Assembly (NCBI GenBank): GCA_019359675.1
Contig: JAHHGX010000027.1
Coordinates: 1-54,038 of the forward strand
DNA: 54,038 nt
Source of the DNA: Calothrix sp. FI2-JRJ7
Lineage (GTDB): Bacteria > Cyanobacteriota > Cyanobacteriia > Cyanobacteriales > Nostocaceae
Reading direction: 5' to 3'
Positions within the stretch are counted from its first letter, which is position 1; each line of letters opens with the position of its first letter. The notes below the pieces were generated by a model that had not been told where the DNA came from, did not search any database, and was given only the letters and a program-made list of their open reading frames with translations. This document shows, piece after piece, positions 1 through 54,038 of this stretch. Position numbers and translations under genes: made by a program.

Positions 1-79
1 TACGAATTAATATAATTAAAATTTATCATCTTAATATCTATAAACAATATAAACTTATAGTTAATTCTGCTTAAATAAC

Positions 80-118
80 TGCCCAACACTTGAGATTGCT
101 TTTCATGACTTTTTCAGC
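80..118 (+). repeat. left copy of imperfect direct repeat flanking the GC-rich oxidase gene
   Basis: Bases 80-118 (TGCCCAACACTTGAG...) resemble 3902-3940 (TGCCCAGCCCTTGAG...) in the same orientation, with shared blocks TGCCCA, CTTGAG, CTTTTC, ATGACT and AGCA in the same order and one 3-base gap. Everything upstream (1-79) is AT-rich and shows no gene. The GC-rich coding sequence begins almost immediately after this copy, at about 122. Confidence 0.4.
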
Positions 119-337
119 AAACCCTACCTAGACATCCTCCCGCCGGGTGAGGCTCAGACAAAGCCGATCCAGGAGTCACACACGACCCTTGAAAATCATC
201 ACTGGCCTGAGCCATGCCCATACCCTGAATTCGATAAGAAGGCTCATCGGGAGTTCGTCGTCATCTTCCACGACGAACCGGAGTTCCAACCGCCCCACGG
301 TCTGTTAGAGCGTGACCCTTGTGACCAGGGCAGTAGT

Positions 338-3300
338 ATGGGTAACAATGGCGGAGGACACGGTGGTGGGCATATGGATCAACTGCCGATTATGCCCATT
401 TCATACCGCTCTGAGCCGATGATCAACCGGGAGCGAACTCTTTGGCGCCTCCAGCGTGAAGGGCATTTCCTAAAGCGGCCTGTTCTCAATGAGGAGCAAC
501 ACCATAGTTCCTGGATGTTTGGAGATCCTGTTACTCCCATCCTCAAGGCTTACATTGGCGACCCCGTCCGAATTCGGCTCGTACACGCCGGGGTGAAGGA
601 GACGCACGTCTTCCATCTCCACCTCTACGAATGGCACGCCGTACCACAGGACAAGAATTCCCCACGTATAGATGCCATCTCCTTTAGCCCGCAAACTGGG
701 CATACGATCGAACCCGTATGGGGTGCTGGTAACCGCCACCAAGTTTCTGGGGATGTCATCTGGCACTGTCACCTCTATCCCCACTTCCACGAGGGCATGT
801 GGGGCATGTTCCGCACCTTCGAGACTTGGCAAGATGGGAAGGACGGTGACTTTATCCAGAGTACCGACCCGATCTACAACGGGCGCCGCATCGGGCACTA
901 CCCTGACGGCACGAAAATTGAATGCCTGCTGCCCCTCCCTGACCGAGACCCGCCTCCCCGTCCTACAGCCACCCACCCAGGTTATCCACTCTACATTCCT
1001 GGGGAAGTTCGGCAGAAGTCACCCACGCCCCCGTGGCCGCTCCGAGAAACACCCATGCCAATAGACTTCGACTATCGACTTGTGCCCACCAATCTCGAGC
1101 GGAACGCATTTAATGATCAGCCCGTCCCAGGCGAGATGTTTACACGCAATCCCATTGCCAAGCAGCAGGCTGAGAAATGGGCGAAGCATCCGGAGTTTAA
1201 GTATAACGACGCTAAGGTAGTCCGCCACAATGTGGTTGTGACGAGCAAGAGGATCGAATACAACGACCACGGCTGGTTCGATCCAAATGGGCACCTCTAC
1301 TACCTCGCCGCAGAGGGCGACCCTGACACCCGCTCCGGTCGTCATGAACCGCTGTTTTTCCGGGCGCAACACGGACAGATCGTAAATCTCACGCTGGCTA
1401 ACCACCTACCACCGAAGACCGAAGGCACCGCCTTTGACCTGCCGTTCCCCCCATGTCCCAAGCGGCCGTGGGAGGGCGAGTGTTCCATGCACGTCCACAT
1501 GGTTAAGTTCGACCCCGTTTGTGGCGATGGTGCAAGCGTAGGCTGGAATTACATTAGCGGTCCCCGGATTGGTAAGAAAATGGTCTACCGCTGGTGGGCG
1601 GATCAGGATTTTGGGACGATTTTCTTCCACGACCACCTCTTCGCTAACTACCGTCAAAAGCACGGTCTGTTCGGCGCCAAGATTGTGGAACCGATTGGTG
1701 CCAAGTTCTATGACAACTTCTCCAACCGTCGGATCGTTAGCGGTCTACAGGCTAGGATCAAACTTAATCCAAATGTGCAGACCAAGGTTCCACCTATACC
1801 GGGATTTCCGCGCAAGACCTGGGTTCGCGAGTTCTGCATTGCCATTGGGGATTTCATACCTATGTTCGACCGCACTGGAGAGCCACTTAACGCACCGAAA
1901 CACCCTGGCGGTCACGGAGACCAAGGGGTTATGGGGCTGAACTACCGTAACGAGCCGATTCGCGAGCGCAAGGGTGATCCTGCTTTCTGGTTTAGCTCTC
2001 ATCACCACCCGGATCCAGCTACTACTAGGTTTGCTGCGTTCGAGAACGACCCGATCTGGTTTCGGTTAGTACAGGGTTCCCATGAGGAGCAGCACAGTTT
2101 CCAAATCCACGGTATGCGCTGGCGCCGCTTCCGCGTGAATCTAGGCTCCCCCATTCGCAACCAACAGACATTCGGAATTGCAGAGGCTTTTACCTTCGTC
2201 AACTATGGACTGTTTGGTTCTGGCGACTACCTTTACAAGCTGTCTGGTGCAGACGATCTGTGGCTCGGTTGCTGGGGTCTCATTCGCTCGTTTCCAAGCT
2301 ATGCCACGGTTGCGAAGACCGGAGGACTTCGTAGGTTGGAGGAGAAAGACCTAAATATGCAAGAGGTGGAGACGACAACCGAGGATGATCCTGTGGAAGT
2401 CGAAGCGGAATCAGTAGATTCGGCGCTAGCAGAGACCGTACAGACCTTAGAGATGGAAACGCTGGTTCCAAAAGACACCGTAGTTAGGCATTTCCACGTG
2501 GTCGCCGAGCCAAGGCGCCTCGTCTACCGCGACTCAGACCTGGTGGATCCGTTCGGTCTGATCTATCGGCTGGTCTCTGTTACCCACCCCAATGGAACAA
2601 GCTACAACATCCCGACCTCGACCGTGCCTGAACCGCTTGTGCTGCGATGCCGAGAAGGGGAATGGGTAAGAGTCACCGTTGACAATCACCTTCCCCGACG
2701 CTTGCAACCGGAGCCATTTGCACCAGAGGTACCGGTCGAGGAGCGAAACCCCCACACGTTCCGACCGGATCGCCCCGTTTCTAGCCACGTCTCCTTGCAC
2801 GCAGATCTCCTAGAGTACGACATCAGGCGGGACGACGGTGCGAACGTAGGATTGAACCCTGAGCAAACAATACCACCCGGAGGTAGCCGCACCTACATTT
2901 GGCACGCCACCCGTCCCACCGATTCCAATGCGAACCAACCTCTCGGTCCGGTACTATTGCAGGACATGGCAGACTTTCGCAACCATCGCCACCACGGTCT
3001 GGTCGGCGCCCTGATTGTGGAGGCCTGCGACGCAACTCCGCTCATGGTAGGCAAGGATGAGGCAACCGCCGCCCAAGACGCCCCAGAGGCGTGGCATGGG
3101 ACGCGGGTAACAGTTGTTCGTGAGAACGCGAGCTTGAAAGAGAATGAGAAGCGCTTTGAGGAAATCGTTCTCCTACTCCAAGATGGGCTGCGCCTCTACT
3201 TGAACGGTAACGTTAACTTTCCTATCCCTGATGCCCCTGCTGGCGTGGGGGAAGATGAAACCGATCCTGAAGACCAAGGACAGAAGGGGTTTAACTATCG

Positions 3301-3670
3301 CACGGAGCCGATCGGATCGAACACGAAACCGGATGGAAACCCGGCGCCTTTGGGAGACTGGCTAGCCAATCCAAACCCCGCTACGCCAATATGGCGCGTG
3401 CCGGTGGGTAAGCAGGTGCAGTTTCACTTGGTGGGTGCGTGCGACAAACCGCGCAACCATAGCTTCACCATTCATGGAGTTACCTGGCCAGAATGGCGCT
3501 TCTTGTCACCCCAAGAACTACCTAAGGTTGCCTCCGAGTCTGCCATCACCTGCGGCACAGTTCGTACCTTTGAGTTCACACCCGAACACTCAGGTGACTA
3601 CGCCTACCGCAGTGGTGTTCTGAAGTGGGCTGTCTCGCAAGGACTCTGGGGAATTCTACGAGTCTTATAG
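338..3670 (+). CDS. large multicopper oxidase-type protein, probably 5'-truncated
   Basis: This 1110-residue multicopper oxidase (cupredoxin) family protein probably oxidises metal ions or phenolic substrates with type 1/2/3 copper sites. Copper-ligand motifs are visible: FHLHLYEWH (92-100), HCHLYPHFHEGMWGMF (143-158), MHVHMVKFD (384-392), FFHDHLFANYRQKHGLFG (429-446), HSFQIHG (586-592) and HSFTIHG near 1034. The pattern 'NYRxEP ... HSFxIHGxxW' appears three times (near 23, 535 and 985), indicating three tandem modules. The reading frame stays open and looks coding upstream of ATG 338 back to about 122: it reads REFVVIFHDE, matching REFCIAIGD before module 2, but it has no start codon and meets a stop at 62. 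The first module therefore lacks its N-terminal half. No signal peptide is visible. GC content is far above that of the neighbours, which suggests horizontal acquisition. It could be a pseudogene or be expressed from ATG 338. Family call is firm; substrate unknown. Confidence 0.75.
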   Translation: MGNNGGGHGGGHMDQLPIMPISYRSEPMINRERTLWRLQREGHFLKRPVLNEEQHHSSWMFGDPVTPILKAYIGDPVRIRLVHAGVKETHVFHLHLYEWHAVPQDKNSPRIDAISFSPQTGHTIEPVWGAGNRHQVSGDVIWHCHLYPHFHEGMWGMFRTFETWQDGKDGDFIQSTDPIYNGRRIGHYPDGTKIECLLPLPDRDPPPRPTATHPGYPLYIPGEVRQKSPTPPWPLRETPMPIDFDYRLVPTNLERNAFNDQPVPGEMFTRNPIAKQQAEKWAKHPEFKYNDAKVVRHNVVVTSKRIEYNDHGWFDPNGHLYYLAAEGDPDTRSGRHEPLFFRAQHGQIVNLTLANHLPPKTEGTAFDLPFPPCPKRPWEGECSMHVHMVKFDPVCGDGASVGWNYISGPRIGKKMVYRWWADQDFGTIFFHDHLFANYRQKHGLFGAKIVEPIGAKFYDNFSNRRIVSGLQARIKLNPNVQTKVPPIPGFPRKTWVREFCIAIGDFIPMFDRTGEPLNAPKHPGGHGDQGVMGLNYRNEPIRERKGDPAFWFSSHHHPDPATTRFAAFENDPIWFRLVQGSHEEQHSFQIHGMRWRRFRVNLGSPIRNQQTFGIAEAFTFVNYGLFGSGDYLYKLSGADDLWLGCWGLIRSFPSYATVAKTGGLRRLEEKDLNMQEVETTTEDDPVEVEAESVDSALAETVQTLEMETLVPKDTVVRHFHVVAEPRRLVYRDSDLVDPFGLIYRLVSVTHPNGTSYNIPTSTVPEPLVLRCREGEWVRVTVDNHLPRRLQPEPFAPEVPVEERNPHTFRPDRPVSSHVSLHADLLEYDIRRDDGANVGLNPEQTIPPGGSRTYIWHATRPTDSNANQPLGPVLLQDMADFRNHRHHGLVGALIVEACDATPLMVGKDEATAAQDAPEAWHGTRVTVVRENASLKENEKRFEEIVLLLQDGLRLYLNGNVNFPIPDAPAGVGEDETDPEDQGQKGFNYRTEPIGSNTKPDGNPAPLGDWLANPNPATPIWRVPVGKQVQFHLVGACDKPRNHSFTIHGVTWPEWRFLSPQELPKVASESAITCGTVRTFEFTPEHSGDYAYRSGVLKWAVSQGLWGILRVL

Positions 3671-3737
3671 GGTACCGATATTTATGGATAAAACAATGCT
3701 GATTAATACTGTTCAATTCTCGTATTAAATAAGACAT

Positions 3738-3773
3738 ATAGGCACCATGTTTATTAAATAAACAGGTGCCTAT
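3738..3773. terminator. strong hairpin downstream of the oxidase gene
   Basis: Left arm ATAGGCACC-A-TGTTTATT (3738-3755) pairs with AATAAACA-GGTGCCTAT (3757-3773), giving 17 base pairs with one bulged A and a one-base loop. It lies 68 bp after the stop codon and probably acts as a terminator, although there is no long T tract. The loop is too tight to form fully, so cruciform or processed-RNA roles are possible. Confidence 0.55.
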
Positions 3774-3901
3774 GAAAAGCTAGGTTTCAGGTTGTTACCA
3801 ATTGCCAGGTACTTCAAAAAGTTATAAACGTCCATTTATGCGGAGAGTCATTGAAAAATTATTACCACGGCGCCGCGTGAGAAGGCGGCTGGCTCAGTCT
3901 T

Positions 3902-3940
3902 TGCCCAGCCCTTGAGCCTTTTCTATGACTGTTAGCATCA
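3902..3940 (+). repeat. right copy of imperfect direct repeat flanking the oxidase gene
   Basis: Partner of 80-118. The surrounding gene-free stretch 3671-4044 also holds the hairpin at 3738 and a locally GC-rich patch (3866-3925) where GGCTGG/CCAGCC and GGCTCA/TGAGCC can form stems. That patch could be a leftover of the same imported segment. No ORF there looks real. Confidence 0.35.
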
Positions 3941-4044
3941 CTTTTCGCTGCTCACCTGGCAATAGCCGTATTCACTCTAAAACAAATAATCTATGATATG
4001 TAGTATACAAACACAAGTACCAAATTATTTATAGTTAAATCCCA

Positions 4045-5355
4045 ATGCAACAACCAATTCACGTTATCGGAGGTGGACTAGCTGGAACTGAGGCAGCTTG
4101 GCAAATAGCTACTGCTGGTATACCAGTAGTTTTACATGAAATGCGCCCACAACGCTTCGGCGGCGCCCATCACAGTGAACATCTCGCCGAATTGGTTTGT
4201 AGTAATTCGTTTGGGGCAATGGCTTCAGACAGAGCATCAGGTTTATTGCACGAAGAGTTACGGCGCCTTGGTTCTATCGTAATTGCAAAAGCAGACGAAC
4301 ATCAAGTTCCCGCAGGTGGCGCCTTAGCTGTTGATAGAGGACAATTTAGCGAAGATTTAACAAATACCCTCGCACAGCATCCATTAATAGAACTGCGACG
4401 AGGTGAAATACCTGCCATTCCTGAAGGAGTTGTAGTTATTGCGAGCGGTCCATTAACGAGTCCTGAGCTTGCAGAAGATTTGCGTCGTTTTACAGGAATG
4501 GAATATCTTAGTTTTTTTGATGCCGCAAGTCCTATAATTGTGGGAGAATCAATAAATCGGGATATTGCTTTTATGGCTTCGCGCTACGACAAAGGCGAAG
4601 CCGCTTACTTAAACTGTCCAATGAATAAGGAACAGTACATTCGGTTTAGAGAAGAACTTTGCAAAGCTGAACAAACCGAGTTGAAAGATTTTGATAGAGA
4701 AAAAGTTAAGTTTTTTGAAGCTTGTTTGCCAATCGAAGAACTAGCACTGCGCGGAGAAGACACCATGCGCTATGGTCCCCTCAAACCTGTAGGGTTATCT
4801 GATACCCGTACAGGCGAACGTTCTTACGCAGTTATTCAATTACGCCAAGAAGACAAACAAGGCAAGTTATGGAATATGGTAGGGTTCCAAACTAACTTAC
4901 GTTGGGGCGAGCAAAAACGTATTTTCCAAATGATACCTGGTTTAGAAAATGCCGAATTTGTACGTTTGGGCGTCATGCACCGCAATACATTTATTAACGC
5001 TCCTCAATTAATGCATCAAACACTGCAATTCAAAGAACATCCAAATATATTAGCCGCAGGTCAAATAATTGGTACCGAAGGATACACAGCAGCATCCGCA
5101 GGTGGTTGGCTAGCTGGAACAAATGCCGCACGTGTTGCATTAGGTAAACAACCAGTAACACTACCAAACACAACAATGATGGGCGCCTTATTTGAATTCA
5201 TCAGTACCGCATCACCCAAACACTTCCAACCCATGCCCCCCAATTTCGGAATATTACCCGATTTAGGCGTAAAAATTAAAAGCAAACCAGAACGATACGG
5301 AAAATACCGCGACAGGTCATTGCAAGATTTAGAAAATTGGAAAATATTACTGTAG
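4045..5355 (+). CDS. trmFO: TrmFO, folate/FAD-dependent tRNA (uracil-54-C5)-methyltransferase
   Basis: This enzyme makes ribothymidine at tRNA position 54, taking the methylene group from 5,10-methylene-THF and electrons through FAD. The protein has 436 residues, the normal family length. The N-terminal FAD-binding glycine motif [11 protein letters not shown] spans 9-19. VCSNSFGAM follows, with Cys52 at the position of the conserved catalytic-region cysteine. [11 protein letters not shown] and the C-terminal [18 protein letters not shown] block are typical of the GidA-like family. The ATG at 4045 begins right at the FAD motif, with only a weak ribosome-binding site. The gene stands alone and is followed by a hairpin whose left arm begins at the stop codon. 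Identification is secure. Confidence 0.96.
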
Positions 5356-5409
5356 GGGCGGGTTAACCCACTAACCACATAGTAAACGAAAATATCGTAA
5401 ACCCGCCCC
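5355..5409. terminator. GC-rich inverted repeat after trmFO
   Basis: GGGGCGGGTT (5355-5364) and AACCCGCCCC (5400-5409) are exact complements separated by 35 bases. The arm starts on the last base of the trmFO stop codon. It sits between convergent trmFO and sodA and may end transcription from both sides. Confidence 0.5.
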
Positions 5410-5469
5410 GAAAATATAGAATGGTCATCCCAACCATCCCATATTTAAAATCCCACGTAATTTACATTG

Positions 5470-6090
5470 TTAACCCTGACCGAGAGACCGAATATATCTG
5501 GTTTCTACATTACCCCAATTAACAACACTCCACCACGCCTTTAAATAATCCGCGCGTCTATTCTGATACTTAAGATAATACGCATGTTCCCACACATCAT
5601 TGCCCAATATCGGATGCTGTCCCAAAGCAAGAGGACTATCTTGATTTGGTGTTGTAACAATTTGCAACTTTCTATCTTTGTCAACAACCAACCAAACCCA
5701 ACCGCTACCAAACTGCTTCAACCCAGCATCATTAAACTGCCGCTTAAAATTGTCAAAGCTTCCAAACGTTGAGTCAATAGCTTGTGCAACCTCACCACCA
5801 GGAACTCCACTCACATTAGGCGCCATACTTTCCCAGAACATCGTATGGTTAAGATGTCCCCCTGCGTTATTCCGTACTACCGTCCGAATAGCCTCCGGAA
5901 CCGCATCTAAATTTATTACCAACTCTTCAAGTGACTTCGCTTGCTGCTCCGGATATTTTTCCAATGCCGCATTTAAGTTATTTACATATGCTGCATGGTG
6001 CTTATCATGGTGCAATTGCATTGTCTCAGCGTCGATATATGGTTCCAACGCTTCATAGTCATAAGGTAACGGCGCCAACACATGTCTCAT
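5470..6090 (-). CDS. sodA: superoxide dismutase, manganese type
   Basis: Cytosolic superoxide dismutase of the Fe/Mn family. The start is the ATG at 6090, which follows GGAG by seven bases. A frame extension upstream to a TTG at 6111 lacks such a site and is unlikely. The product is 206 residues. Metal ligands lie in the helix containing [10 protein letters not shown], in [10 protein letters not shown], and in the Asp/His of [18 protein letters not shown] rather than the AAQ of iron enzymes, plus the glutamine in PNQDSPL, points to manganese. There is no membrane anchor, unlike the thylakoid Mn-SODs of some cyanobacteria. The gene is monocistronic and converges on trmFO. Confidence 0.95.
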
Positions 6091-6160
6091 ATATTTCTCC
6101 AAATTAACCAACTAAACAAAAAATAATCTCAATAACCTTAAAACATAAAACTCTTGTGGA

Positions 6161-6178
6161 ACAGGCATCCCTGCCTGT
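6161..6178. repeat. dispersed palindrome, ACAGGCA-TCCC-TGCCTGT family
   Basis: A short perfect hairpin (7-bp arms, TCCC loop). Longer relatives lie at 20014-20034 and 31764-31785, always between genes and close to a stop or start. The core sequence is almost identical in all three, marking a dispersed small-repeat family. Confidence 0.6.
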
Positions 6179-6295
6179 CTTATACACTTGGTTAGTTCCA
6201 ACCTCTATATAAATCATACTCGAAATGACTATGACTTGCAACAATCCTCTAAATAATTTTCGGCGCCAACAATCCAGATATAGGATAAAATACTT

Positions 6296-6321
6296 AAAAC
6301 CCGCCTCAAAGTAGAAGCGGG
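6296..6321 (-). terminator. Rho-independent terminator of the small membrane-protein gene
   Basis: Read on the minus strand, CCCGC, a 12-base loop and GCGGG are followed by TTTTAAG. It lies 39 bp downstream of the stop at 6360 and fits an intrinsic terminator. Confidence 0.65.
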
Positions 6322-6359
6322 CAGTATATAATTTTCAATTGTTACAGTAGTGATAATGA

Positions 6360-6695
6360 TTATTGAGCTTTCTTTTTATCTTGCTTTTTACTAATAAATC
6401 CGAAATCATCTTCTTTCATTGTAATCATACCGTGTACACCAAGGGCTGCAATTGCGGCGCCAATAAATCCCCAAGTGCCATCAGTGAAAGCATTGATGCG
6501 GTGTGATAAGCTACGGTGGTAAGCAAAATCGAGTTGTCGAGTACTGCCGTTACCATCGCGCGCAAGTCTTTCGATGTAATCTTCAGTTCGTTCTAAAGCG
6601 TTATAATCAACATCGTAAGCATAAAGTGATGACCCCATGACAATTAAGCCGGGAATCACAAGTGCGATTAAAAGTATGCCTCTGCCTGAATTCAT
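6360..6695 (-). CDS. small two-helix membrane protein of unknown function
   Basis: 111 residues. A hydrophobic segment near 7-27 (ILLIALVIPGLIVMG) is followed by a charged middle region (YNALERTEDYIERLARD, HRSLSHRINAF), a second hydrophobic segment near 74-92 (WGFIGAAIAALGVHGMI), and a basic tail ending KKQDKKKAQ. No catalytic motif is visible and I do not recognise the family beyond a general likeness to conserved cyanobacterial hypotheticals. It is transcribed alone, ends at an intrinsic terminator and is divergent from the following peptidase-like gene. Confidence 0.7.
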   Translation of the reverse strand: MNSGRGILLIALVIPGLIVMGSSLYAYDVDYNALERTEDYIERLARDGNGSTRQLDFAYHRSLSHRINAFTDGTWGFIGAAIAALGVHGMITMKEDDFGFISKKQDKKKAQ

Positions 6696-6868
6696 ACGAC
6701 CTCATGTCAGGTAATATATGCAATTAATGCTGACATATCCGTATTTTTGCGTTAGTATCTGGCAAACAATTGCAAAATTAGCTTCTGCCGTTAGCGAACA
6801 GATTTTTTTGGGAATAATATTCGTGGTTGGTTGAATTTTGGATTTAAAATCCTCAGTAGTCTAACAAC

Positions 6869-8077
6869 ATGAAAGCTATATATATCCCAAAAAGATGGAA
6901 TCATTTAAGATTTACTCTTGTTTTATTGTCTGTTCTATGTGTTATTTTGATATGGTTTCCAGCATTATCTCTACAAACACAGGCAAAAAATACATCTATT
7001 GATGCACTACAGAAACAGCAGCAACAACTAAAATTACAGCGTGGGCAAGTTAGTCAAGAACGTAACCGTTTGGACAACTTACAAAATGTCGCACAAGATA
7101 GACTCAACAATTTAGAACAAAACTTACAAACGACCACCACCCAAATTCAAGACAGCGAAAACCGTTTAAAGCTAGCAACCGAACGTCTCGAACAACTCCA
7201 AGCCGATTTATCAGTAGCTGAACGTTCGTTCAAAGAAAGACAAGACGCAACCGTAGGAAGATTAAGGTTCTTACAGCGTTCAACAGCGAGTCATGGGTGG
7301 ACTGTGTTATTACAAAGTCGAAGTATAAACGATTTTCTAAGTCGGCGCCGACATTTAAAGATGGTATATCAGGCAGACCAGCAAATACTAGCAAAACTTA
7401 CAGAAGAAGCAAACCGAATAGTAGAGCAAAAAACAGATGTTGAACAGGTAAAAAACGAGATAAGCTTAATTCGTCAGCAACTCTTAGCACAAAAAAATGA
7501 CTATCAGTCTCAAGCTGCATCGCAATCAGAACTAATCGACAGATTAAATAACGACCGTTTAGCATTAGCAGCAGCACAAACCCAACTCGAACAAGACTCT
7601 ATTGCCATTGGTAACTTAATTCAGCAAAAAATAGCTGCTCAAAAAGCGCGTGAAGCTGCCGAAAAAGCAATTAGTAAAAGATTTACTGAAGGAACAGGTA
7701 TATTTGGCTTTCCTAGCGATGCACCTATTAGTAGTCCCTTTGGTTATAGAACTCACCCTGTACTTGGTTATCGGCGCCTACATGCGGGTATCGATTTTGC
7801 AGGCGCCTACGGTAGTCCAATTCGTGCAGCAGATGCAGGTACCGTAATATTTGCAGGATGGTACGGTGGTTACGGAAACGCAGTAATAATCAGCCACGGC
7901 AAAGGAATTACAACCTTATATGGTCACAGTAGCCAGTTATTTGTATCCGAAGGGCAAACAGTACAACGCGGACAGCAAATAGCAGCAGTAGGTTCCACAG
8001 GTTTATCAACAGGCCCCCACCTACACTTTGAAGTTCGTCTTGACGGCACACCAACCGACCCAGCACCCTATTTATAA
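6869..8077 (+). CDS. EnvC-like murein hydrolase activator, coiled coil plus M23 domain
   Basis: 402 residues. The N-terminus carries a membrane anchor or signal segment (about 15-37). A long Gln/Leu-rich coiled coil runs from about 45 to 270, followed by a C-terminal M23 (LytM) domain from about 285. The M23 zinc motif is present as HAGID, with YGHSS and HLHFEV, so the zinc ligands appear intact. Many EnvC proteins lack them, so this one could be a true endopeptidase rather than only an amidase activator. The role is peptidoglycan remodelling at the septum or envelope. It stands alone, between a divergent small membrane-protein gene and tRNA-Arg. Confidence 0.9.
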   Translation: MKAIYIPKRWNHLRFTLVLLSVLCVILIWFPALSLQTQAKNTSIDALQKQQQQLKLQRGQVSQERNRLDNLQNVAQDRLNNLEQNLQTTTTQIQDSENRLKLATERLEQLQADLSVAERSFKERQDATVGRLRFLQRSTASHGWTVLLQSRSINDFLSRRRHLKMVYQADQQILAKLTEEANRIVEQKTDVEQVKNEISLIRQQLLAQKNDYQSQAASQSELIDRLNNDRLALAAAQTQLEQDSIAIGNLIQQKIAAQKAREAAEKAISKRFTEGTGIFGFPSDAPISSPFGYRTHPVLGYRRLHAGIDFAGAYGSPIRAADAGTVIFAGWYGGYGNAVIISHGKGITTLYGHSSQLFVSEGQTVQRGQQIAAVGSTGLSTGPHLHFEVRLDGTPTDPAPYL

Positions 8078-8086
8078 CGTTCACTC

Positions 8087-8116
8087 GTAGAGACGCGAGG
8101 AACATCGCGTCTCTAC
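8087..8116. repeat. dispersed palindrome, GTAGAGACGCGA family
   Basis: GTAGAGACGCGA (8087-8098) and TCGCGTCTCTAC (8105-8116) are exact inverse copies around a six-base loop. The same element recurs at 28763-28790 and, partly doubled, at 34720-34765. Here it lies 9 bp after the peptidase gene and may also serve as its terminator. Confidence 0.7.
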
Positions 8117-8158
8117 ATCAACCAAAAAATTGAATCTATGATATAATTACAAGAACGA

Positions 8159-42506: not shown

Positions 42507-42529
42507 GTTGGGCGTACTGCCCACCTTAC

Positions 42530-45880: not shown

Positions 45881-45954
45881 CGAGCGTGGCAGGACTCGAA
45901 CCTGCGGCAGACGGATTAGAAATCCGTTACTCTATCCAGCTGAGTTACACGCCC
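45881..45954 (-). tRNA. tRNA-Arg (anticodon TCT)
   Basis: Minus strand: acceptor GGGCGTG/CACGCTC with one G-T, D arm ACTC/GAGT, anticodon stem ACGGA/TCCGT with loop TTTCTAA giving TCT, T arm GCAGG-TTCGAGT-CCTGC, discriminator G. Reads AGA codons. CCA is not encoded. Confidence 0.95.
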
Positions 45955-46245
45955 AGTCTACAATACAAGGATTTTACATCAATTTTTTAAAAAAAGCAAT
46001 AGGATATTGTAAATTTTAGTCAAGACTAAAATCTAGGTGTAAAATATATTGTTACTTATATAATCACAGGATAGCATTGATGAGGCGCCGGGTGGATAGT
46101 CAGGTTGAATAAAAGTAAAATTGTGCTAACTTGTATCCAGTATATTGATATACAAGATACAAAGTAAACGCAATTGACTTTCAAAGTCAGTGTGCTGTTT
46201 ATAAAAAATAACAATGCCCCTGTCAGGAGTAGTGAAGCGTTTGTC

Positions 46246-46905
46246 ATGTTCATTTTAAAGCGGCAGGATGTTGAAATATCAACCATTCAGCACCCAAAGC
46301 GGGACCAGCAGGTGCCCATTCTTTATTATCAGGGGCAAACTTTTCGGTTGATAAGTGTATTTAGAGCAAATCAAGAAGAAGAAGCCAAGGCATTATGGCG
46401 TGAGTTGACGGATAATCGAGGTAAAGCTTGTATTCTTCTCGAAGAACCAGACCGTTACAGCGTTTGGGGAAAAGTCCGTCTTGAGCAATTAGGTGCAGAA
46501 ACTGAAGATTCGATAAAGACAACGACTTTGCTTGTAGCTAGTATTTTATTACTACAGTCGATACATATTGATATTGAAGAATTTCTAGGCGCCCGACAAG
46601 CCGTATTATTTGAAAAGGATATGGCAGAAGTGTGTAGACAAAAGCAATATCCCCAAGCATCTTCACCTGAGTCATTTAAATATTTGTTAAACGTCAACCC
46701 ATTACAGGCAGCTCAATTGCCAACCTGGCAGGAAAATCATGTAGTCACGTTTTTACAAGAACTGCATCGGTTGGGTAAAGTTTATTTTGGAAACACAAAC
46801 TTTGCTCATCCTGTTGTTGATAAATTACAAGAGATGTCAGAAAGTGACCGTTCGTTTTTTATAAGTTGGCTCAATCAATCGCCTGTGAATAAAATTTGGC
46901 ATTAG
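46246..46905 (+). CDS. conserved hypothetical protein
   Basis: 219 residues from ATG 46246 (MFILKRQDVEIS), preferred because the upstream extension to 46174 looks non-coding. It is soluble. YYQGQTFRLISVFRANQEEEAKALWRELTDNRGKACILLEEPDRYSVWGKV forms a compact alpha/beta start, with a helical C-terminus (SDRSFFISWLNQS). No domain known to me. It begins 131 bp before the next gene on the same strand. Confidence 0.7.
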   Translation: MFILKRQDVEISTIQHPKRDQQVPILYYQGQTFRLISVFRANQEEEAKALWRELTDNRGKACILLEEPDRYSVWGKVRLEQLGAETEDSIKTTTLLVASILLLQSIHIDIEEFLGARQAVLFEKDMAEVCRQKQYPQASSPESFKYLLNVNPLQAAQLPTWQENHVVTFLQELHRLGKVYFGNTNFAHPVVDKLQEMSESDRSFFISWLNQSPVNKIWH

Positions 46906-47036
46906 TGTTTAGTAGTTTTACTTAGGCTTAAGTTTGGGTAAAGCGAGTATATTGTGGGTTTAAGCGGTTTGAACTGCAAGCTGTCAATCAAACTGAGTCA
47001 AAAAAACTACAACACCCATAGCAAAAATAAATTAGT

Positions 47037-47915
47037 ATGAGTAACACTTATAAGAATTCGTATCCATCTACGCTGTTTTCAACCCAGAATATCGTATTAG
47101 CTAGTCTAGGTTGGGGTGTGCTGACGCTTTTGTACTTTCTGTTATTTAGCGCTGAGGTTCCTTCTAGTGACGGGAGTTTAAAGCGCGCGGATTGGTACAT
47201 ACTTGGTACAAATATTTTTGAAGCAGTGGCTTATCTTGGTGCAGGTGTTCTATGCTTAAGAAATTGGCGCAGCCAAGCTTTGGTAAGCAACCGCAATGTT
47301 TGGCTGTTGATGGGCATAGGTATGCTTTCTTATTTTTTAGGAGGAGTATTCTTTGGCTACACAGAAATTGTTTTAAAGCAAGAGCCATTCCCTTCAATTG
47401 GCGATGTGTTTTTCGTGATTACCTATATAGTTGTGGGTTCCGCAATGATTTTAGCAGTGGCTTCGAGACGAATTAAACTAGAGTCTTGGCAGTGGATTAT
47501 TATGGCGATGATTGCTATATGTGGTAGTGCGCTTGCATGGTTAATATCGAATCAACCAGTGGGTGTAGAAAAAGACAAGGTTGAAGAGTGGGCAGTTCAA
47601 ATTGCTCCACTATTAAACTGGTTTTATGTGATTAGTGACGTGTTGTTATTAATCATTGCTACTGCTTTACTGCTAGCATTTTGGGGTGGGCGTGTTTCTT
47701 TATCTTGGCGAATGATTGCAGCCGCAGCATTTTCGCTATATATCGCAGATATGTGGCAAAAATACGCTACTACGTGGATACAAAATTATCAAAGTGGAGG
47801 GATACTAGAAGTGTTCTATGTATGGAGTGGAGTGTTATTTGGTATGGGTGCTGTCTTAGAATATGACGCATCTCTCAATCGTTCGCGGCGCGAACGTTCA
47901 AAAAAACGAGCCTAG
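47037..47915 (+). CDS. eight-helix membrane protein
   Basis: 292 residues. Hydrophobic segments lie near 18-38, 62-78, 92-110, 124-144, 154-170, 193-213, 222-242 and 258-275. The architecture resembles the N-terminal sensor of some bacterial signalling proteins but no output domain follows. The tail is very basic (RSRRERSKKRA). The HTH-protein gene begins two bases after its stop, so they are coupled. A membrane partner of that regulator is an inference. Confidence 0.75.
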   Translation: MSNTYKNSYPSTLFSTQNIVLASLGWGVLTLLYFLLFSAEVPSSDGSLKRADWYILGTNIFEAVAYLGAGVLCLRNWRSQALVSNRNVWLLMGIGMLSYFLGGVFFGYTEIVLKQEPFPSIGDVFFVITYIVVGSAMILAVASRRIKLESWQWIIMAMIAICGSALAWLISNQPVGVEKDKVEEWAVQIAPLLNWFYVISDVLLLIIATALLLAFWGGRVSLSWRMIAAAAFSLYIADMWQKYATTWIQNYQSGGILEVFYVWSGVLFGMGAVLEYDASLNRSRRERSKKRA

Positions 47916-47917
47916 AT

Positions 47918-48964
47918 TTGGTATCTACCGTGAGAAAACTAACAGAGTCAGACAAACAAGAGATACTTAAGTGCTATCGCGAAAGTGCTGAAACAACTTC
48001 AACCTTAGCGGAGAAGTACGACGTTAGCAACTCAACAATTAGTCGTTTGCTAAAAAGTACTTTACCCGAAGATGAGTATGAGTATCTTGTTTCGCTTAAG
48101 CGAGCAGCGCGTACACCAGAAGGAAGAGCTACGGTAAGTTACGAAAATATCCCAGAGTTTAACTCACAACTTGTAATTTCCGAACCTGTTGTAGAAGTTG
48201 AAAAACCAGCAACTCCTCGCAAAACGAAACTGCCTCCAGTAGCACTAAAAGAACCACAACCAGAGGTTCCGATGCCAACAGAAGCAATTGAAGGCGAAGT
48301 TGGGGTTCGCAGGGTACGTAAAAAACGCTCTTCCGCAGAACAAGAGGCGCCAATGCCAGTTCGACCTGTTGCAAAACAGTTAGAACTGCTGGAAACAAAA
48401 TCATCTAATGTGCCTTCTTATGAAAATTCCCAATATCAGGAGGATATTCCAGAGGATATACGTGCTGATACAACAGCGATGCAGTTAGAGGCAACGCAAA
48501 ACACTTTTGCTGAGATGTTTGGCGAGGAACTGCTCGATGACCAGGGGGACGACTTAGATGACTTGGACGACCTCGATGATGAAGACGATGACGACGATGA
48601 AGAATGGGAGGCGCCTCGACCATTAGTAACTCGACGTGGTGATAGCTTAGTTAGAGTTTTACCTTTATCAGCAGCTAGTTTACCTAGAACCTGTTATCTC
48701 GTTATCGACCGCGCCGCCGAACTAATCACACGTCCATTGCGTGATTTTGGTGACTTAGGGCAAATACCTAACCCCGAAACCCAGCAGCGTACCTTACCCA
48801 TATTCGATAATCATAGAGTCGCTAAACGGTTTTCCACCAAACGCGACCGCGTGATTAAAGTTCCCGACAGCCGGATGTTGCACAAAGCACGCTATCAATT
48901 GCAAGCTAAAGGCATAACCCGCTTGTTAATCGACGGTCAGGTTTATTCATTATCCTCTGTGTAG
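47918..48964 (+). CDS. HTH-domain protein with long acidic linker
   Basis: 348 residues. The N-terminal 60 residues carry a transposase-8-like helix-turn-helix (DKQEILKCYRESAETTSTLAEKYDVSNSTISRLLK). A disordered Pro/Glu/Lys-rich region and a run of Asp/Glu near 207-228 (DDLDDLDDLDDEDDDDDEE) follow. The last 110 residues (RTCYLVIDRAAELITRPLRDFGDL ... VPDSRMLHKARYQLQAKGITRLLIDGQVYSL) are a conserved cyanobacterial module. TTG 47918 lies two bases after the previous stop; GTG 47930 is an alternative. Not a transposase despite the HTH; regulator is inferred. Confidence 0.7.
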   Translation: MVSTVRKLTESDKQEILKCYRESAETTSTLAEKYDVSNSTISRLLKSTLPEDEYEYLVSLKRAARTPEGRATVSYENIPEFNSQLVISEPVVEVEKPATPRKTKLPPVALKEPQPEVPMPTEAIEGEVGVRRVRKKRSSAEQEAPMPVRPVAKQLELLETKSSNVPSYENSQYQEDIPEDIRADTTAMQLEATQNTFAEMFGEELLDDQGDDLDDLDDLDDEDDDDDEEWEAPRPLVTRRGDSLVRVLPLSAASLPRTCYLVIDRAAELITRPLRDFGDLGQIPNPETQQRTLPIFDNHRVAKRFSTKRDRVIKVPDSRMLHKARYQLQAKGITRLLIDGQVYSLSSV

Positions 48965-49039
48965 TTATTAATCATTAGTCAGTAGTCACCTTAAAGATGG
49001 ACTATGAACAATGAACTACATTATTAAGCAGGGCGCCTT

Positions 49040-49070
49040 GAGGGTTGACAGCTAGTTAACCCTCATTGTT
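49040..49070 (+). terminator. intrinsic terminator of the membrane-protein/HTH pair
   Basis: GAGGGTT (49040-49046) and AACCCTC (49058-49064) form a 7-bp stem followed by ATTGTTTGTTT. It lies 76 bp after the HTH-gene stop. Confidence 0.7.
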
Positions 49071-49110
49071 TGTTTACTGATATAAAAAACTATAAATTTT
49101 ATACTTTTAT

Positions 49111-49428
49111 ATGGAATACTGCGTAGTAATGGTGACAGCGAGTTCGCAGCTAGAAGCAGAAACCATAGCTAAAACCCTTGTAGAATCAAAGCTTGCCGCC
49201 TGCGTCAACATTTTTCCTATTCAATCAATTTATACTTGGCAAGATAAAGTTCACAATGAACCTGAATTTCAATTATTTATCAAAACCGACAGGCGCCTGT
49301 TTAACACCTTAGAAACTAAAATTCGTGAGCTACACTCCTACGAAGTACCAGAAATTATCGCCCTCCCCATTATTGCAGGTTCACAACCCTATTTAAACTG
49401 GATTTCTGAAAACACCAATAACCTGTAG
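49111..49428 (+). CDS. cutA: CutA divalent-cation tolerance protein
   Basis: 105 residues. Trimeric ferredoxin-like fold. VMVTASSQLEAETIAKTLVESKLAACVNIFP is the family signature, followed by IQSIYTWQDKVHNEPEFQLFIKT and HSYEVPEIIALPI. Linked to copper and other divalent-metal tolerance, mechanism unsettled. Single gene, preceded by a terminator and followed by two hairpins. Confidence 0.95.
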   Translation: MEYCVVMVTASSQLEAETIAKTLVESKLAACVNIFPIQSIYTWQDKVHNEPEFQLFIKTDRRLFNTLETKIRELHSYEVPEIIALPIIAGSQPYLNWISENTNNL

Positions 49429-49476
49429 TACAGGCCTTCTTCGTCTGTGGAATGATAAAAGCTAACGTTCATACCC

Positions 49477-49529
49477 GCATGGGAATGTAAGTTCCCATGC
49501 TAATAGCCTAAGTCCTCTATAAGAGGACT
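49477..49529. repeat. two consecutive perfect hairpins after cutA
   Basis: GCATGGGAA-TGTAAG-TTCCCATGC (49477-49500) is followed ten bases later by AGTCCTCT-ATA-AGAGGACT (49511-49529). They could form a composite terminator or small RNA between the convergent genes. Confidence 0.55.
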
Positions 49530-49574
49530 AAGACTGAATGTTACTTTTAATACTTATTGTCAAATAATGATGCT

Positions 49575-49623
49575 AATTTTCCTAGAGGATATCTTTTTAT
49601 GCAATTTATCCTCTAGGAATTTT
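49575..49623. repeat. TCCTAGAGGATA inverted-repeat element, second copy
   Basis: TTTTCCTAGAGGATA and TATCCTCTAGGAATTTT flank a spacer of about 15 bases different from that at 20115-20163. The arms are identical between copies, the spacer is not. Confidence 0.65.
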
Positions 49624-49651
49624 GGCGCCTGGTGGAAATAAATCTTATTTA

Positions 49652-50608
49652 TTATTTAATTTTAGTAAATCGATTTGCTAAATCAATAATGTCGTCTTTG
49701 CGTGCAATTAGTTCTATCCAGTCTTGAGGTATATTATCAAAACCATAGTAAATACCTGCCAGTCCACCTGTAACAGCTGCCGTAGTATCTGTGTCAAATC
49801 CTAAATTCACAGCTTTTAGTACAGCTTCGGCATAAGAAGAACTATTTAAAAGGCACCATAGTGATGCTTCAAGTGTATCAATTACATATCCATCTGAACT
49901 TATTTTCTCTATTGGTAGTTTATCAATGGCGCCATCAAAGACTCGTTCAAAATGCTGCATCTCCATATTATATTCAGATGTACTATAAATATCTTTAACG
50001 TCTTTTATGCCTTTTAGGTAAGCTGCGTGTTTGTCGGCGCCTTTTAGCAAAGCAACAGCAATACTAATATATATACCGCACGCTATTTGTGACCTTGCAT
50101 GAGCGTGAGTGATACAAGAGACTTGATGTACCCGTTTGATTAATTCAGAAAATTCTAATTCTCTATATAAATAAGCCATTGGCAAAATTCGCATCAGTGA
50201 ACCATTACCATTACTGTTCTCAGTTTTTCCACCTGCGTCTACGGGTGAGGCACCTTGTTTCCAATTTACAATAGCCAAAAACGTAGTATTACCAACGTCA
50301 AACACTTCACCCCTAGCAGTCCAGTAACTTTCGTGATACCACAGCCAAAACGACTTTGCTATAGCATCGAGTGAAAAACCATTACATAAACTTTCTGCCA
50401 AACAAAAAGTCAGGGAACTATCATCAGACCAAGTGCCAGGTGGTTGATCCCATGTTCCGTAACCCTGCATTGAAGTTACTAGTGATGCTGCTCTCTCTGC
50501 GCGACTGGTAAATTCTACAGGCACTCCTAAAGCATCACCGACACAAACACCCATTAAACCAGATAACACTTGATTGTTTGACATAATAGTTCTTTGGATA
50601 CTCACCAT
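49652..50608 (-). CDS. ADP-ribosylglycohydrolase family protein (DraG-like)
   Basis: 318 residues. Removes ADP-ribose from proteins or related substrates using two metal ions. Metal motifs: GDALGVP near 24-30, DDSSLT, and C-terminal FDTDTTAAVTGGLAG. The AHARSQIACGIY segment matches the family's H-A-H region. ATG 50608 is the longest start; MSNNQVLSG at 50584 is a likely alternative. No nitrogenase or DraT gene is nearby, so a nitrogenase role is not supported. Confidence 0.88.
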   Translation of the reverse strand: MVSIQRTIMSNNQVLSGLMGVCVGDALGVPVEFTSRAERAASLVTSMQGYGTWDQPPGTWSDDSSLTFCLAESLCNGFSLDAIAKSFWLWYHESYWTARGEVFDVGNTTFLAIVNWKQGASPVDAGGKTENSNGNGSLMRILPMAYLYRELEFSELIKRVHQVSCITHAHARSQIACGIYISIAVALLKGADKHAAYLKGIKDVKDIYSTSEYNMEMQHFERVFDGAIDKLPIEKISSDGYVIDTLEASLWCLLNSSSYAEAVLKAVNLGFDTDTTAAVTGGLAGIYYGFDNIPQDWIELIARKDDIIDLANRFTKIK

Positions 50609-50864
50609 AACAATAATGGTCGTATCATTTATAACTTATTTGTTCCCGAAAGTGTGACAGATTTAAAAGTGTCATCTAAAACATATAATTCTCCTGTATT
50701 TTCGCTAGAAGTCTGTAAACATAATGCTCTTGAAGTTTTATTTAGTGATAAATATGATTTTAAATAGCAACATTGACTTAAGAAAAGCCGAAAAGTCACT
50801 GGAACCTTTTAGTATTTTTTTCGACTTTAAATATAAAGCGATACTTACAAATTAGGTTAAAAAT

Positions 50865-51398
50865 ATGAAAGGTGTGATGAAGTCTTTTGTGACAATTTCT
50901 GCATTATCCGCTTTAGCAATTGCTCCAATTTTTATGTCTGCTGGTTCTGCAAGTGCGGCGCCTAAAAAAGGTACTGATGCAGCCTATATAGGTGCTGGTG
51001 TTGCTGCTGGCGTTACTAACGGTGGTCAAAGTGGAGATGCAGCAACTTTTGGTGGAAATATTACTGGTCGTGTACCTTTAGGCGGTTCTGTATCTGCACG
51101 TGGTCAAATCAACTTTAGTAACGAAACAAGCGCAATTATCCCCCACTTGACTGTAGACGTACCTATCGCAAAAGGTACTAACCTCTATGTTGGTGGTGGT
51201 TATCAATTTGTTGAAGAAAACGGCAAACCAACTCCCAGTGGCAATAAAGATGGTATTGCTGTTGTAGCTGGTGTTGAATCTGAAGTAGCAAAAAATTTCC
51301 TTATCTATAGTAACGCTACTGTCGGTGTCAATGCTTATCAAAATAGTTCCGCTTCTGGTGTTAGCCTCAACGGAGGTATTGGCTGGCGCGTGAAGTAA
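50865..51398 (+). CDS. small secreted beta-barrel (predicted outer-membrane) protein
   Basis: 177 residues. Signal peptide ends AGSASA (about 31). The mature part alternates hydrophobic and polar residues in about eight strands (AAYIGAGVAAGV, FGGNITGRVPL, LTVDVPIAKGTNLYVGGGYQF, FLIYSNATVGVNAY) and ends in an aromatic-basic strand GIGWRVK. Resembles OmpX/OmpW-size barrels. ATG 50865 is preceded by AGGTTAAAAAT. Function unknown. Confidence 0.75.
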   Translation: MKGVMKSFVTISALSALAIAPIFMSAGSASAAPKKGTDAAYIGAGVAAGVTNGGQSGDAATFGGNITGRVPLGGSVSARGQINFSNETSAIIPHLTVDVPIAKGTNLYVGGGYQFVEENGKPTPSGNKDGIAVVAGVESEVAKNFLIYSNATVGVNAYQNSSASGVSLNGGIGWRVK

Positions 51399-51636
51399 AA
51401 ATTCAAGCGTCTTTACAATTGCTAATGGCTAATAGTCAATAACTCATAACAATTAAAGTGCTTGCTGTTATACCTTGAACTTAACTATTAGCAATTAGTT
51501 ACAAACAATTACAAACAACTAATAAGTATTATTGCCGGGTTTGTTTTAGTGTTACATCACTAGCGAAGTCGGCTTTTCAACGTGGTAGAATATAAATAAT
51601 TCAACTTAATCCCGACCGGATTACCGTACAACCGTA

Positions 51637-51670
51637 GCCGAATAGGTGCTAAATCTTACCATGTTTCGGC
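51637..51670 (+). promoter_or_regulatory. hairpin in the upstream leader of the sulfite reductase gene
   Basis: GCCGAA (51637-51642) pairs with TTCGGC (51665-51670), and AGGT with ACC inside it, 41 bp before ATG 51711. No SAM- or cobalamin-riboswitch consensus was recognised in 51399-51710. A cis-regulatory element responsive to sulfur status is possible but unproven. Confidence 0.3.
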
Positions 51671-51710
51671 GTGTAGTGATGAATGAATAAGAACACTTTA
51701 TTTTACAGAA

Positions 51711-53528
51711 ATGGTACAATCTGCTCCTCCTCCTGCCGTTGAAACCCGCAAACCTTCTAAAGTCGAAGGACTTAAAGAACGTAGTAATTTTTTACGTGAA
51801 CCAGTTGCTACTGAGTTACTTCAAGACACGAATCACTTTAGCGAAGACGCTATACAAATTCTGAAATTTCATGGTTCGTACCAGCAAGATAATCGTGATA
51901 ACCGCGCCAAAGGGCAAGAGAAAGATTATCAAATGATGTTGCGTACACGTAACCCAGGTGGTTTTGTGCCGCCAGAGTTATATTTGACTTTAGATAAACT
52001 GGCTGACGAATACGGTAATCATACAATACGTGCTACCACTCGCCAAGGGTTTCAGTTACATGGAATTTTAAAGAAAAATCTTAAGCCATCGATTGCTGCT
52101 ATAGTTCAAAGCATGGGTTCAACGTTAGGCGCCTGTGGAGATGTGAACCGTAACGTGATGGCGCCACCAGCACCTTTCAAAAATAGACGCGATTATCAGT
52201 ATGCTTGGGAGTATGCCGAAAATATAGCCCAGCTACTAACACCACAAACAGGAGCTTACTACGAAATTTGGCTAGATGGCGAAAAAGCCATTAGTGCTGA
52301 AGAAAACCCAGAAGTCGTAGCAGCACGTCAAAAGAATGGGACGGGTACAATTATTCATGACAACCCAGAACCTATCTATGGTACACACTACATGCCACGT
52401 AAGTTTAAAGTGAGCGTGACAGTACCAGGAGATAATTCAATTGATTTATATAGTCAAGATTTGACGTTGGTAGTCATTACCAATAAAAAAGGTGAACTCA
52501 AAGGGTTTAATGTATTTGCTGGTGGGGGTTTAGGAAGAACTCATAACAAAGAAGAAACCTTCGCACGTACCGCAGACCCAATTGGTTACGTACAAAAAGA
52601 AGACGTTTACGACTTGGTAAAAGCAATTGTTGCCACACAGCGCGATTATGGTGATAGAACCGACAGGCGCCATTCTCGATTAAAGTATTTAATAAACGAT
52701 TGGGGAGTTGAAAAGTTCCGCACGAAAGTCGAAGAGTACTTCGGTAAACCTGTCGAACCATTTAAGAAACTCATCAAGTTTAGATATCATGACTTTCTGG
52801 GTTGGCACGAACAAGGTGATGGTAAATTATTCTTGGGTGTTTCCATCGACAATGGACGTGTAAAAGACGAAGGTGACTTTAAGCTTAAAACAGCACTGCG
52901 CGAAATCGTCGAGAAGTATAACTTACCGATACATCTAACACCGCATCAAAACGCGCTGTTATGTAACATTGCACCTGAACACAAAGAAGAAATTGAAGCA
53001 ATTCTTAATCGTAATGGTGTAGTCACAGACTTAGAAAAAATTGACTCGCTAGAAAGATTCTCTATGGCATGTCCTGCTTTGCCCACTTGTGGTTTAGCAG
53101 TAACCGAGTCTGAGCGCGCAATACCATCATTTTTACAACGGATACGAGCATTACTCGATAAAGTCGGGTTGCCAAATGAACATTTCGTTACCAGAATGAC
53201 TGGGTGTCCGAACGGATGTGCGCGTCCTTATATGGCAGAACTAGGATTTGTGGGTAGTGCCCCCTTATCGTATCAAGTTTGGCTTGGTGGATGTCCCAAT
53301 CAAACTCGACTGGCACAACCGTACACCGAAAAAATGCATGTAGACGACTTAGAGACTTTCCTCGAACCGATTTTTGTATTGTTCAAAAAGTCGCGTAAGA
53401 AAAAAGAAAGTTTTGGTGATTTTTGTGCGCGTGTTGGTTTTGATGCTATTCGTTCCTTCAGCGAGACTTATCAACCTGGAGTTGAAGTAGCTGTTAATGG
53501 TAAAGACGGAAATGGTAAAAATAAATAA
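51711..53528 (+). CDS. sir: ferredoxin-dependent sulfite reductase
   Basis: 605 residues, six-electron reduction of sulfite to sulfide with ferredoxin. [13 protein letters not shown] near the start, [11 protein letters not shown] and TRQGFQLHG are substrate- and sirohaem-binding regions. The 4Fe-4S/sirohaem cysteines lie in [11 protein letters not shown] and [16 protein letters not shown]. The presence of PALPTCGLA and length over 600 favour sulfite rather than nitrite reductase. The C-terminal tail ([12 protein letters not shown]) is variable. It ends at a strong terminator and stands alone. Confidence 0.95.
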
Positions 53529-53604
53529 TTGTTTTCGTTACCTCATAATCTGTTTTTTACTAGCTGGTAAAAACATTTTTATACAATTAAAACGTTAATT
53601 AAAT

Positions 53605-53637
53605 AAAGACAGTGGACATTCTTACCACTGTCTTTTT
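53605..53637 (+). terminator. intrinsic terminator of sir
   Basis: AAAGACAGTGG (53605-53615) and CCACTGTCTTT (53625-53635) form an 11-bp perfect stem with a T-rich 3' side, 76 bp after the stop codon. Confidence 0.85.
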
Positions 53638-53834
53638 ACTAAGTTTAAATTTAGTAGTAAAACCATAAGTCAAAATAATAACACTTCAACAGAACAACTT
53701 AAAATGTGGCAGATTATTGATGAAAGTGATATAGCAATAAACTTTTTGAATGAAATTTAGACAATTAATTATCAATTCTTTGAATTCGTCCAAGTTCAAG
53801 GTAATTTCCCAAGGATGTTCGCGTAATTTGAAGG

Positions 53835-53966
53835 TTATAACCAGTTCTCTAATTTCATATTAGGGATATTTTCAAAATCTCTGATATTATTAGTTACTAT
53901 GATATCATCACGCTGAAGGGGTGACAAAGGCGCCTGAAAAGCTGTACTGGTAAAGTGTGTAACATT
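53835..53966 (-). pseudogene. 3' remnant of a VapC-type PIN-domain toxin gene
   Basis: The minus-strand frame encodes RDDIIVTNNIRDFENIP then MKLENW and stops at 53835. This is the C-terminal signature of PIN-domain VapC toxins. Upstream the frame hits a stop at 53967, no start precedes, and the catalytic N-terminus is absent. A complex palindrome lies directly upstream and may mark the break. Confidence 0.5.
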
Positions 53967-54038
53967 TCATGGTAGAAAAGATAGGTCTTCTATTTGCAAT
54001 AAGACCTACCTATTGAAAATGTTACCAACATTCTACCA
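53959..54038. repeat. nested palindromic element at the window end
   Basis: GTAACATTTC (53959) pairs with GAAAATGTTAC (54015), TAGGTCTT (53982) with AAGACCTA (54001), and TGGTAGAA (53970) with TTCTACCA (54031). The alternative pairings give a large hairpin that continues past the window. It abuts the vapC remnant. Confidence 0.5.

Follow-up and report, generated by a model that had tools for sequence, protein, structure and literature searches.

The window, by which we mean the whole 54,038-bp stretch of Calothrix DNA that was analyzed, contains 109 copies of GGCGCC by exact count (positions 1 to 54038, no strand assigned), spaced 495 bp apart on average (range, 17 to 2236 bp), together with 2 copies of CGATCG and none of the classical cyanobacterial highly iterated palindrome HIP1 (GCGATCGC). 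From successive copy positions, the longest interval free of GGCGCC runs from 19908 to 22137 (2.2 kb, no strand assigned) and contains the gap at 20 to 21.1 kb in which the original prediction had called the word rare. A seryl-tRNA synthetase gene (36625 to 37905, minus strand), identified by Pfam and family search, was used for ranking relatives, and the stretch from 34100 to 53900 (plus strand) served as the anchor for orthologous regions of six other genus members in the substitution analysis. The window also carries a histidine kinase gene (27120 to 28328) whose N-terminal domain is of the ethylene-receptor (ETR1-like) type and a dispersed repeat of ~112 bp (45253 to 45372), with ten copies, 95 to 98% identical, elsewhere in the genome on different contigs.

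Excess and placement of GGCGCC

Base composition (GC content, 40.5%) predicts 3.71 copies of GGCGCC in the window and a first-order Markov model predicts 5.92; by the first-order score, GGCGCC ranks first among the palindromic hexamers. These counts bear out the original prediction, which had put the number at about 109 against 3 to 4 expected at 40% GC, had seen no HIP1, and had proposed that GGCGCC replaces it. A maximal-order Markov model gives an expectation of 64, because its 5-mers are themselves pieces of GGCGCC. The genome of the window (G000; 8,663,394 bases in 91 contigs) holds 14,889 copies of GGCGCC, against an order-0 expectation of ~595, and 31 of HIP1, so the replacement extends well beyond the window; genome-wide, GGCGCC is far from expectation and HIP1 is not abundant elsewhere, the two points on which the proposal had been staked. 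The HIP1 octamer is not in excess at all, since its backward control occurs 51 times. The corresponding backward control for GGCGCC, CCGCGG, is found only 8 times in the whole 8.66 Mb. In the palindrome tables, which cover the window plus 80 to 214 kb per genome, CCGCGG has 0 copies in any stretch, sister genus included. GATC is also scarce in G000, with an observed-to-expected ratio (O/E) of 0.17 over 214 kb.

As predicted, the copies lie mainly in genes and in all reading frames: 97 of the 109 fall inside open reading frames of at least 100 amino acids and 12 outside, with 55 in frame 0, 19 in frame 1, and 23 in frame 2. The predicted rarity in gaps holds per kilobase, with 1.03 copies per kb in intergenic DNA versus 1.96 elsewhere over 214 kb of G000, but it is an effect of composition, since the O/E is higher in intergenic DNA (22.9 versus 16.4). 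There is next to no chance that composition or codon usage (Gly-Ala codons, GC pressure) makes the excess, and this explanation was rejected: the predominance of frame 0 is in its favor, but CCGCGG, of the same composition, is rare genome-wide, first- and second-order Markov models leave the excess unexplained, and the intergenic O/E is as high as stated. The hexamer has only a weak flank preference. An even-spacing or coverage function was likewise rejected, as spacing is near random (coefficient of variation, 0.82 to 1.04) and the isolation of a copy does not raise its conservation significantly.

Distribution in the genus and an orphan C5-methyltransferase

Whole-genome counts were made for 217 family genomes. 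The 7 members of this genus contain 7,475 to 20,380 copies of GGCGCC each (1.15 to 1.72 per kb, or one per 600 to 900 bases genome-wide in this Calothrix group) and 31 to 163 copies of HIP1 (0.004 to 0.023 per kb). The other 210 genomes contain 0 to 1,053 copies of GGCGCC and 30 to 8,803 of HIP1. A density above 1 GGCGCC per kb is thus shared by all 7 genus members and reached by none of the other 210. The genus members, among them Calothrix NIES-4105 (G063), C42_A2020_038 (G064), HK-06 NIES-2101 (G062), and PCC 7716 (G065), differ from the window genome at 5 to 19% of aligned DNA, and the original prediction of a strain-specific word therefore has to be given up: the whole genus has GGCGCC as its alternate highly iterated palindrome, HIP1 is practically absent, and within the genus the takeover is one evolutionary event. 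GGCGCC has an O/E of 13.7 to 20.8 in the 7 genus genomes (80 to 214 kb each), where no other GRCGYC word is enriched (O/E of GGCGTC, 0.13 to 0.41; of GACGTC, 0 to 0.19).

Seryl-tRNA synthetase identity to the window protein is 89 to 98% in other genus members, 83 to 85% in the nearest other genus, which includes Calothrix elsteri CCALA 953, and 82% in the next. In three loci of this sister genus (59 kb in total), CGATCG has an O/E of 14.7, and GGCGCC, GGCGTC, and GACGTC have 0 copies. Among 80 loci from named genomes, five have at least 4 copies of GGCGCC and an O/E above 3 (15.8 to 49); all five are from this genus and without a nuclease match, and one of them is plasmid-borne. The plasmid, of Calothrix NIES-4105, carries 29 copies in 20.9 kb (O/E, 19.6). 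Stretches of G420 (3) and G262 (1) consist entirely of N and contributed no counts. CGCGCG is a second enriched palindrome of the 7 genus genomes (O/E, 3.4 to 8.6; 11 copies in the window) and ranks with the hexamers best preserved when G000 is compared with G063; it has 0 copies in the sister genus and an O/E of 0.26 in nine other loci pooled.

All 7 genus genomes encode a C5-methyltransferase (MTase) of ~317 amino acids that is 81 to 100% identical among them (best 10 candidates per genome scored); in G000 its gene occupies C79:135478-136428. It matches PF00145 with an E value of 6.9e-66, its C5-cytosine methyltransferase motifs are conserved, and its best match among solved structures is a chain of M.HaeIII, followed by a cytosine methyltransferase and M.HhaI. 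At all 7 loci the gene lies between a gene for a RuBisCO-like protein and one for an SLH-domain protein, and no nuclease was seen among its neighbors; a dihydroorotase gene is nearby in 6 of 7 within the retrieved stretch. The syntenic copy of G062 is split by a contig break, and a whole extra copy is present elsewhere in the genome. The genus orphans form one clade (support, 100/99), and the six unbroken syntenic copies have dN/dS values of 0.05 to 0.15 and intact catalytic motifs. The adjacent SLH-domain gene is full length in six relatives and shortened in G000, where only residues 1 to 160 of 684 align (L032:5922-6440).

The PF00145 proteins of the genus (METHYLTRANSFERASE) form several clusters. 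Because every one of the 7 genomes also has another C5-MTase, of ~370 amino acids, the orphan is not singled out by its presence alone. A second, variable paralogue of the orphan (55 to 63% identity) is present in G000, G061, G062 (as a fragment), G063, and G065. No second copy was found in G060 or G064, which have one match each at E values up to 1e-45 (best 10 candidates scored) and one member each of the orphan kind in the clustering of PF00145 proteins, and a second copy as a requirement was rejected. Around the paralogue in Calothrix PCC 7716 (L195), 20.9 kb hold 61 copies of GGCGCC (O/E, 49), nearly twice the genus norm.

Homologues of the orphan at E values up to 1e-45 are present in 55 of the 210 other family genomes (best 10 candidates per genome scored), and the upstream open reading frame encodes a HindVP nuclease (PF09519) at 9 of 9 loci scanned; NCBIfam returned no name for this nuclease partner. 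PF09519 has no match in the 7 genus genomes and occurs in 43 of 210 other family genomes, and 39 of those 43 carry the MTase (best 10 candidates per genome scored). The cutting target of HindVP is GRCGYC. Two MTases of Calothrix PCC 7103 were independently assigned GRCGYC specificity in Elhai 2015 (PMC4390886). The nuclease partner, this assignment, and the sister genus's depletion in GRCGYC words together suggest GRCGYC as the target of the orphan, which makes this HindVP-type enzyme the putative methylator of GGCGCC in all 7 genomes.

In the 16 family genomes that have the MTase and lack PF09519 (best 10 candidates per genome scored), HIP1 is kept at 0.33 to 1.03 per kb and GGCGCC reaches at most 0.043 per kb, so two conditions, loss of HIP1 and an orphan MTase, appear to be needed. 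HIP1 is also poor in G194, of the same family, and in G230, of another family (0 copies in 40 kb); a close MTase homologue is absent from both, with no MTase match at all in G230, and neither has a GGCGCC excess. In G191, HIP1 is low (0.08 per kb), the MTase is present, the PF09519 frame has one stop, and there is 1 GGCGCC.

A possible replicate of the takeover is G284, which belongs to the same order and another family and is one of the 41 of 386 sampled genomes of the phylum with the MTase family at E values up to 1e-75 (best 5 candidates per genome scored). It has 9,489 copies of GGCGCC in 3.8 Mb, only 3.7-fold enriched given a GC content of 54%. There, CGGCGCCG has an O/E of 24.0 (105 copies in 94 kb) and is a probable new alternate palindrome, while HIP1 has an O/E of 0.5, against 138 and 174 in the congeners G281 and G295. 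A close MTase homologue was not found in G281, and G295 is not among the 41 positive genomes (best 5 candidates per genome scored). The MTase of G284 groups with the HindVP-associated MTase of Calothrix MO_167.B12, on another branch far from the Calothrix orphan, and HindVP was not found on the 13 kb around it. G284 also has a 5.8-fold enrichment of AGCGCC/GGCGCT, which falls outside GRCGYC, and this counts against a simple parallel with the Calothrix genus. More such cases may exist among the high-GC genomes of the sample, part of which the O/E values covered.

Conservation, decay, and turnover of GGCGCC sites

We aligned orthologous stretches covering 174 kb, later 214 kb, of G000 with six relatives, after removal of blast pieces that scored below 350 bits or overlapped others. 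GGCGCC was kept more often than other words of at least five G or C in G063 (167 of 230, 0.73 versus 0.43), G060 (221 of 244, 0.91 versus 0.74), and G064 (84 of 179, 0.47 versus 0.27); in G061 its retention (173 of 235, 0.74) was little above that of other GC-rich words (0.69). Amino acid constraint was controlled through silent third positions, with the expectation taken from the same codons elsewhere. By this measure, 432 of 447 positions were conserved in G060 (373.5 expected), 342 of 404 in G063 (230.6 expected), and 370 of 415 in G061 (331.6 expected). A stricter control used hexamers equally unanimous in the other genomes, with G062 and G064 excluded for partial coverage. Outer silent positions then showed 9 changes versus 22.8 expected on the four close lineages and 17 versus 63.4 on the G063 lineage, which corresponds to 0.27 to 0.39 of the matched rate.

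The inner cytosine behaves differently. At silent inner cytosines, total changes numbered 36 versus 36.1 expected on the close lineages and 23 versus 50.7 on the G063 lineage, and all 59 of 59 were C to T; other changes numbered 0 on both, versus 10.6 and 17.6 expected, respectively. Taken alone, inner C-to-T changes exceed the control on the close lineages only (36 versus 25.4; P = 0.03) and fall below it on the G063 lineage (23 versus 33.1). What sets them apart is how they differ from every other kind of change in the word, including C-to-T changes at outer positions (6 versus 17.5 on the close lineages and 8 versus 38.3 on the G063 lineage). Thus, GGCGCC is protected at every position, and the inner cytosine escapes through C-to-T change alone, as deamination of GG-5mC-GCC predicts. 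The pattern points to a putative 5-methylcytosine at this position, the base that Elhai's model requires. Compared with the CpG background per C, inner C-to-T losses are higher in four of five close lineages (0.026 to 0.058 versus 0.008 to 0.016) and lower in the fifth, G060 (0.007 versus 0.012); on the longer lineages the values are 0.051 versus 0.039 (G063) and 0.046 versus 0.063 (G064).

Four close genomes share 240 aligned places at which one or more of them has GGCGCC; at 128 of these the word is common to all. Outgroups support 49 single-lineage absences (25 in G061, 17 in G000, 5 in G065, and 2 in G060), and there are 6 single-lineage presences without outgroup support, an imbalance that parsimony exaggerates because it overcounts common-to-rare changes. 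Gains are hardly seen, so comparisons at this depth do not show the build-up of GGCGCC, and the number of copies may be declining, mostly in G061 and G000; the gains are too few for a test of their spectrum. At a few presences, several substitutions together separate the copy from every relative, a pattern that suggests recombination or import of DNA. Silent change at GGCGCC on the G063 lineage proceeds at 0.35 of the silent rate. Protection alone would therefore yield an approximately threefold excess at equilibrium, and the 14- to 21-fold excess would require faster gain, now or earlier.

Proposed mechanism and comparison with known systems

The reading that we favor, with modest confidence and from sequence comparison, begins with the loss of HIP1 in the ancestor of this Calothrix genus. 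A HindVP-type C5-MTase with the predicted target GRCGYC would have lost its nuclease and been inherited vertically as an orphan, and it would methylate the inner cytosine to give GG-5mC-GCC. A methylation-dependent process would then have built up 1.1 to 1.7 copies of GGCGCC per kb and would still protect them, while deamination of the methylated cytosine would erode the sites. In Elhai's model, mismatch repair would read G-5mC as a strand mark and thereby favor site-creating mutations; the other option would be selection for a sufficient density of methylated marks. Judged from the genomes, the most likely mechanism is a repair bias that depends on methylation or else selection in favor of methylated sites. 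The original prediction had likewise proposed a methyltransferase or repair bias, and the conserved orphan, the silent-site protection, and the C-to-T signature uphold it in outline; the methylation and repair steps are those that we infer.

It is unlikely, although well short of implausible, that GGCGCC is instead selected for a function independent of methylation, such as a DNA uptake signal or a chromosome-organizing site. Such a function would account for the silent-site protection, and the scarcity of gains is what selection on an old set of sites would give. However, the word is dense also on the NIES-4105 plasmid and in intergenic DNA, its spacing is near random with no significant effect of isolation, and such a function would explain neither the C-to-T signature nor the pairing with this MTase family in G284. 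The DNA uptake sequences of Neisseria and Pasteurellaceae are short, genome-wide, enriched, and conserved; GGCGCC shares these properties but is a hexamer with weak flank preference.

We consider it improbable that the sites date from a past biased process in the genus ancestor, with only constraint and deamination decay operating now. The 49-to-6 imbalance of absences over presences and the rate of inner C-to-T losses, which exceeds the CpG background in all but one of the five close lineages, are what such a finished burst would leave. Against it, GGCGCC densities remain within 1.5-fold across species up to 19% apart, parsimony inflates the imbalance, and silent protection in G060 is strong (2 changes versus 10.4). 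More doubtful still is very-short-patch repair, in which a Vsr-like nuclease would turn T:G in GGTGCC into C:G and so create or restore GGCGCC. No single change is commoner than the exchange of GGCGCC with GGTGCC, and the likelihood estimate of the back rate from GGTGCC is high (6.9), although its interval (0.46 to 15.4) includes the generic rate of 0.51 and the difference is not significant. GGTGCC is not strongly depleted (O/E, 0.68 to 1.63), and a search for PF03852 that was positive in 5 of 14 control genomes had no hit in the 7 genus genomes; this absence of a Vsr gene led us to reject the mechanism.

A broader proposal, which we offer tentatively, is that the iterated palindrome is exchangeable: after the loss of HIP1, a captured orphan MTase would set a new word, its methylated cytosine would serve as the strand mark for repair, and the word would persist for the life of the genus. 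This would have happened at least twice, with GGCGCC in Calothrix and CGGCGCCG in G284.

Among known systems, HindVP-type restriction-modification (PF09519 plus a C5-MTase) has MTases related to the orphan enzyme, which is ~57 to 73% identical to the MTases of PF09519-bearing family genomes. The genus differs in that PF09519 has a match in 0 of 7 genomes and the target word is enriched, not avoided. HIP1 resembles GGCGCC as a genome-wide iterated GC-rich palindrome, at approximately one per kb, that is linked to orphan methyltransferases (PMC4390886), but it is another word and is practically absent from this genus.

The nearest precedent is Calothrix PCC 7103, for which Elhai 2015 (PMC4390886) is the only literature that we found on GGCGCC in Calothrix or on palindromes of this strain. 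According to the parts of that paper on which we draw, GGCGCC is the alternate palindrome of PCC 7103, and a methylation and repair idea was already printed for it; the evidence covered a single strain and 19 kb from another, exceptional palindromes were held to be sporadic and not in clades, a second MTase copy was thought perhaps critical, and the function of such palindromes was given a model and not a test. No later work on alternate palindromes was found among titles and abstract openings, a coverage that leaves most subscription journals outside. PCC 7103 is alike in the word itself, the loss of HIP1, low GATC, GRCGYC-type methyltransferases, and the depletion of other GRCGYC words, and one of the 7 genus genomes, perhaps G061 with its two MTase copies, may be this strain. 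New here are the clade-wide trait, the syntenic orphan C5-MTase in 7 of 7 genomes without the HindVP nuclease, the silent-site protection with a C-to-T-only inner cytosine, and G284. The description of exceptional palindromes as sporadic, as worded in the parts of the 2015 paper used here, fails for this genus, and the single copies in G060 and G064 do not bear out the suggested role of a second MTase. Persistence in a clade also weakens one of the two arguments given there for a HIP1-specific function, namely, that exceptional palindromes do not persist in clades. The C-to-T pattern points to the likely methylated base, the G-5mC repair model becomes testable through a single orphan gene, and a whole genus with another word, together with its close species, sister genera, and single-MTase species, provides a comparative series beyond the single strains of 2015.
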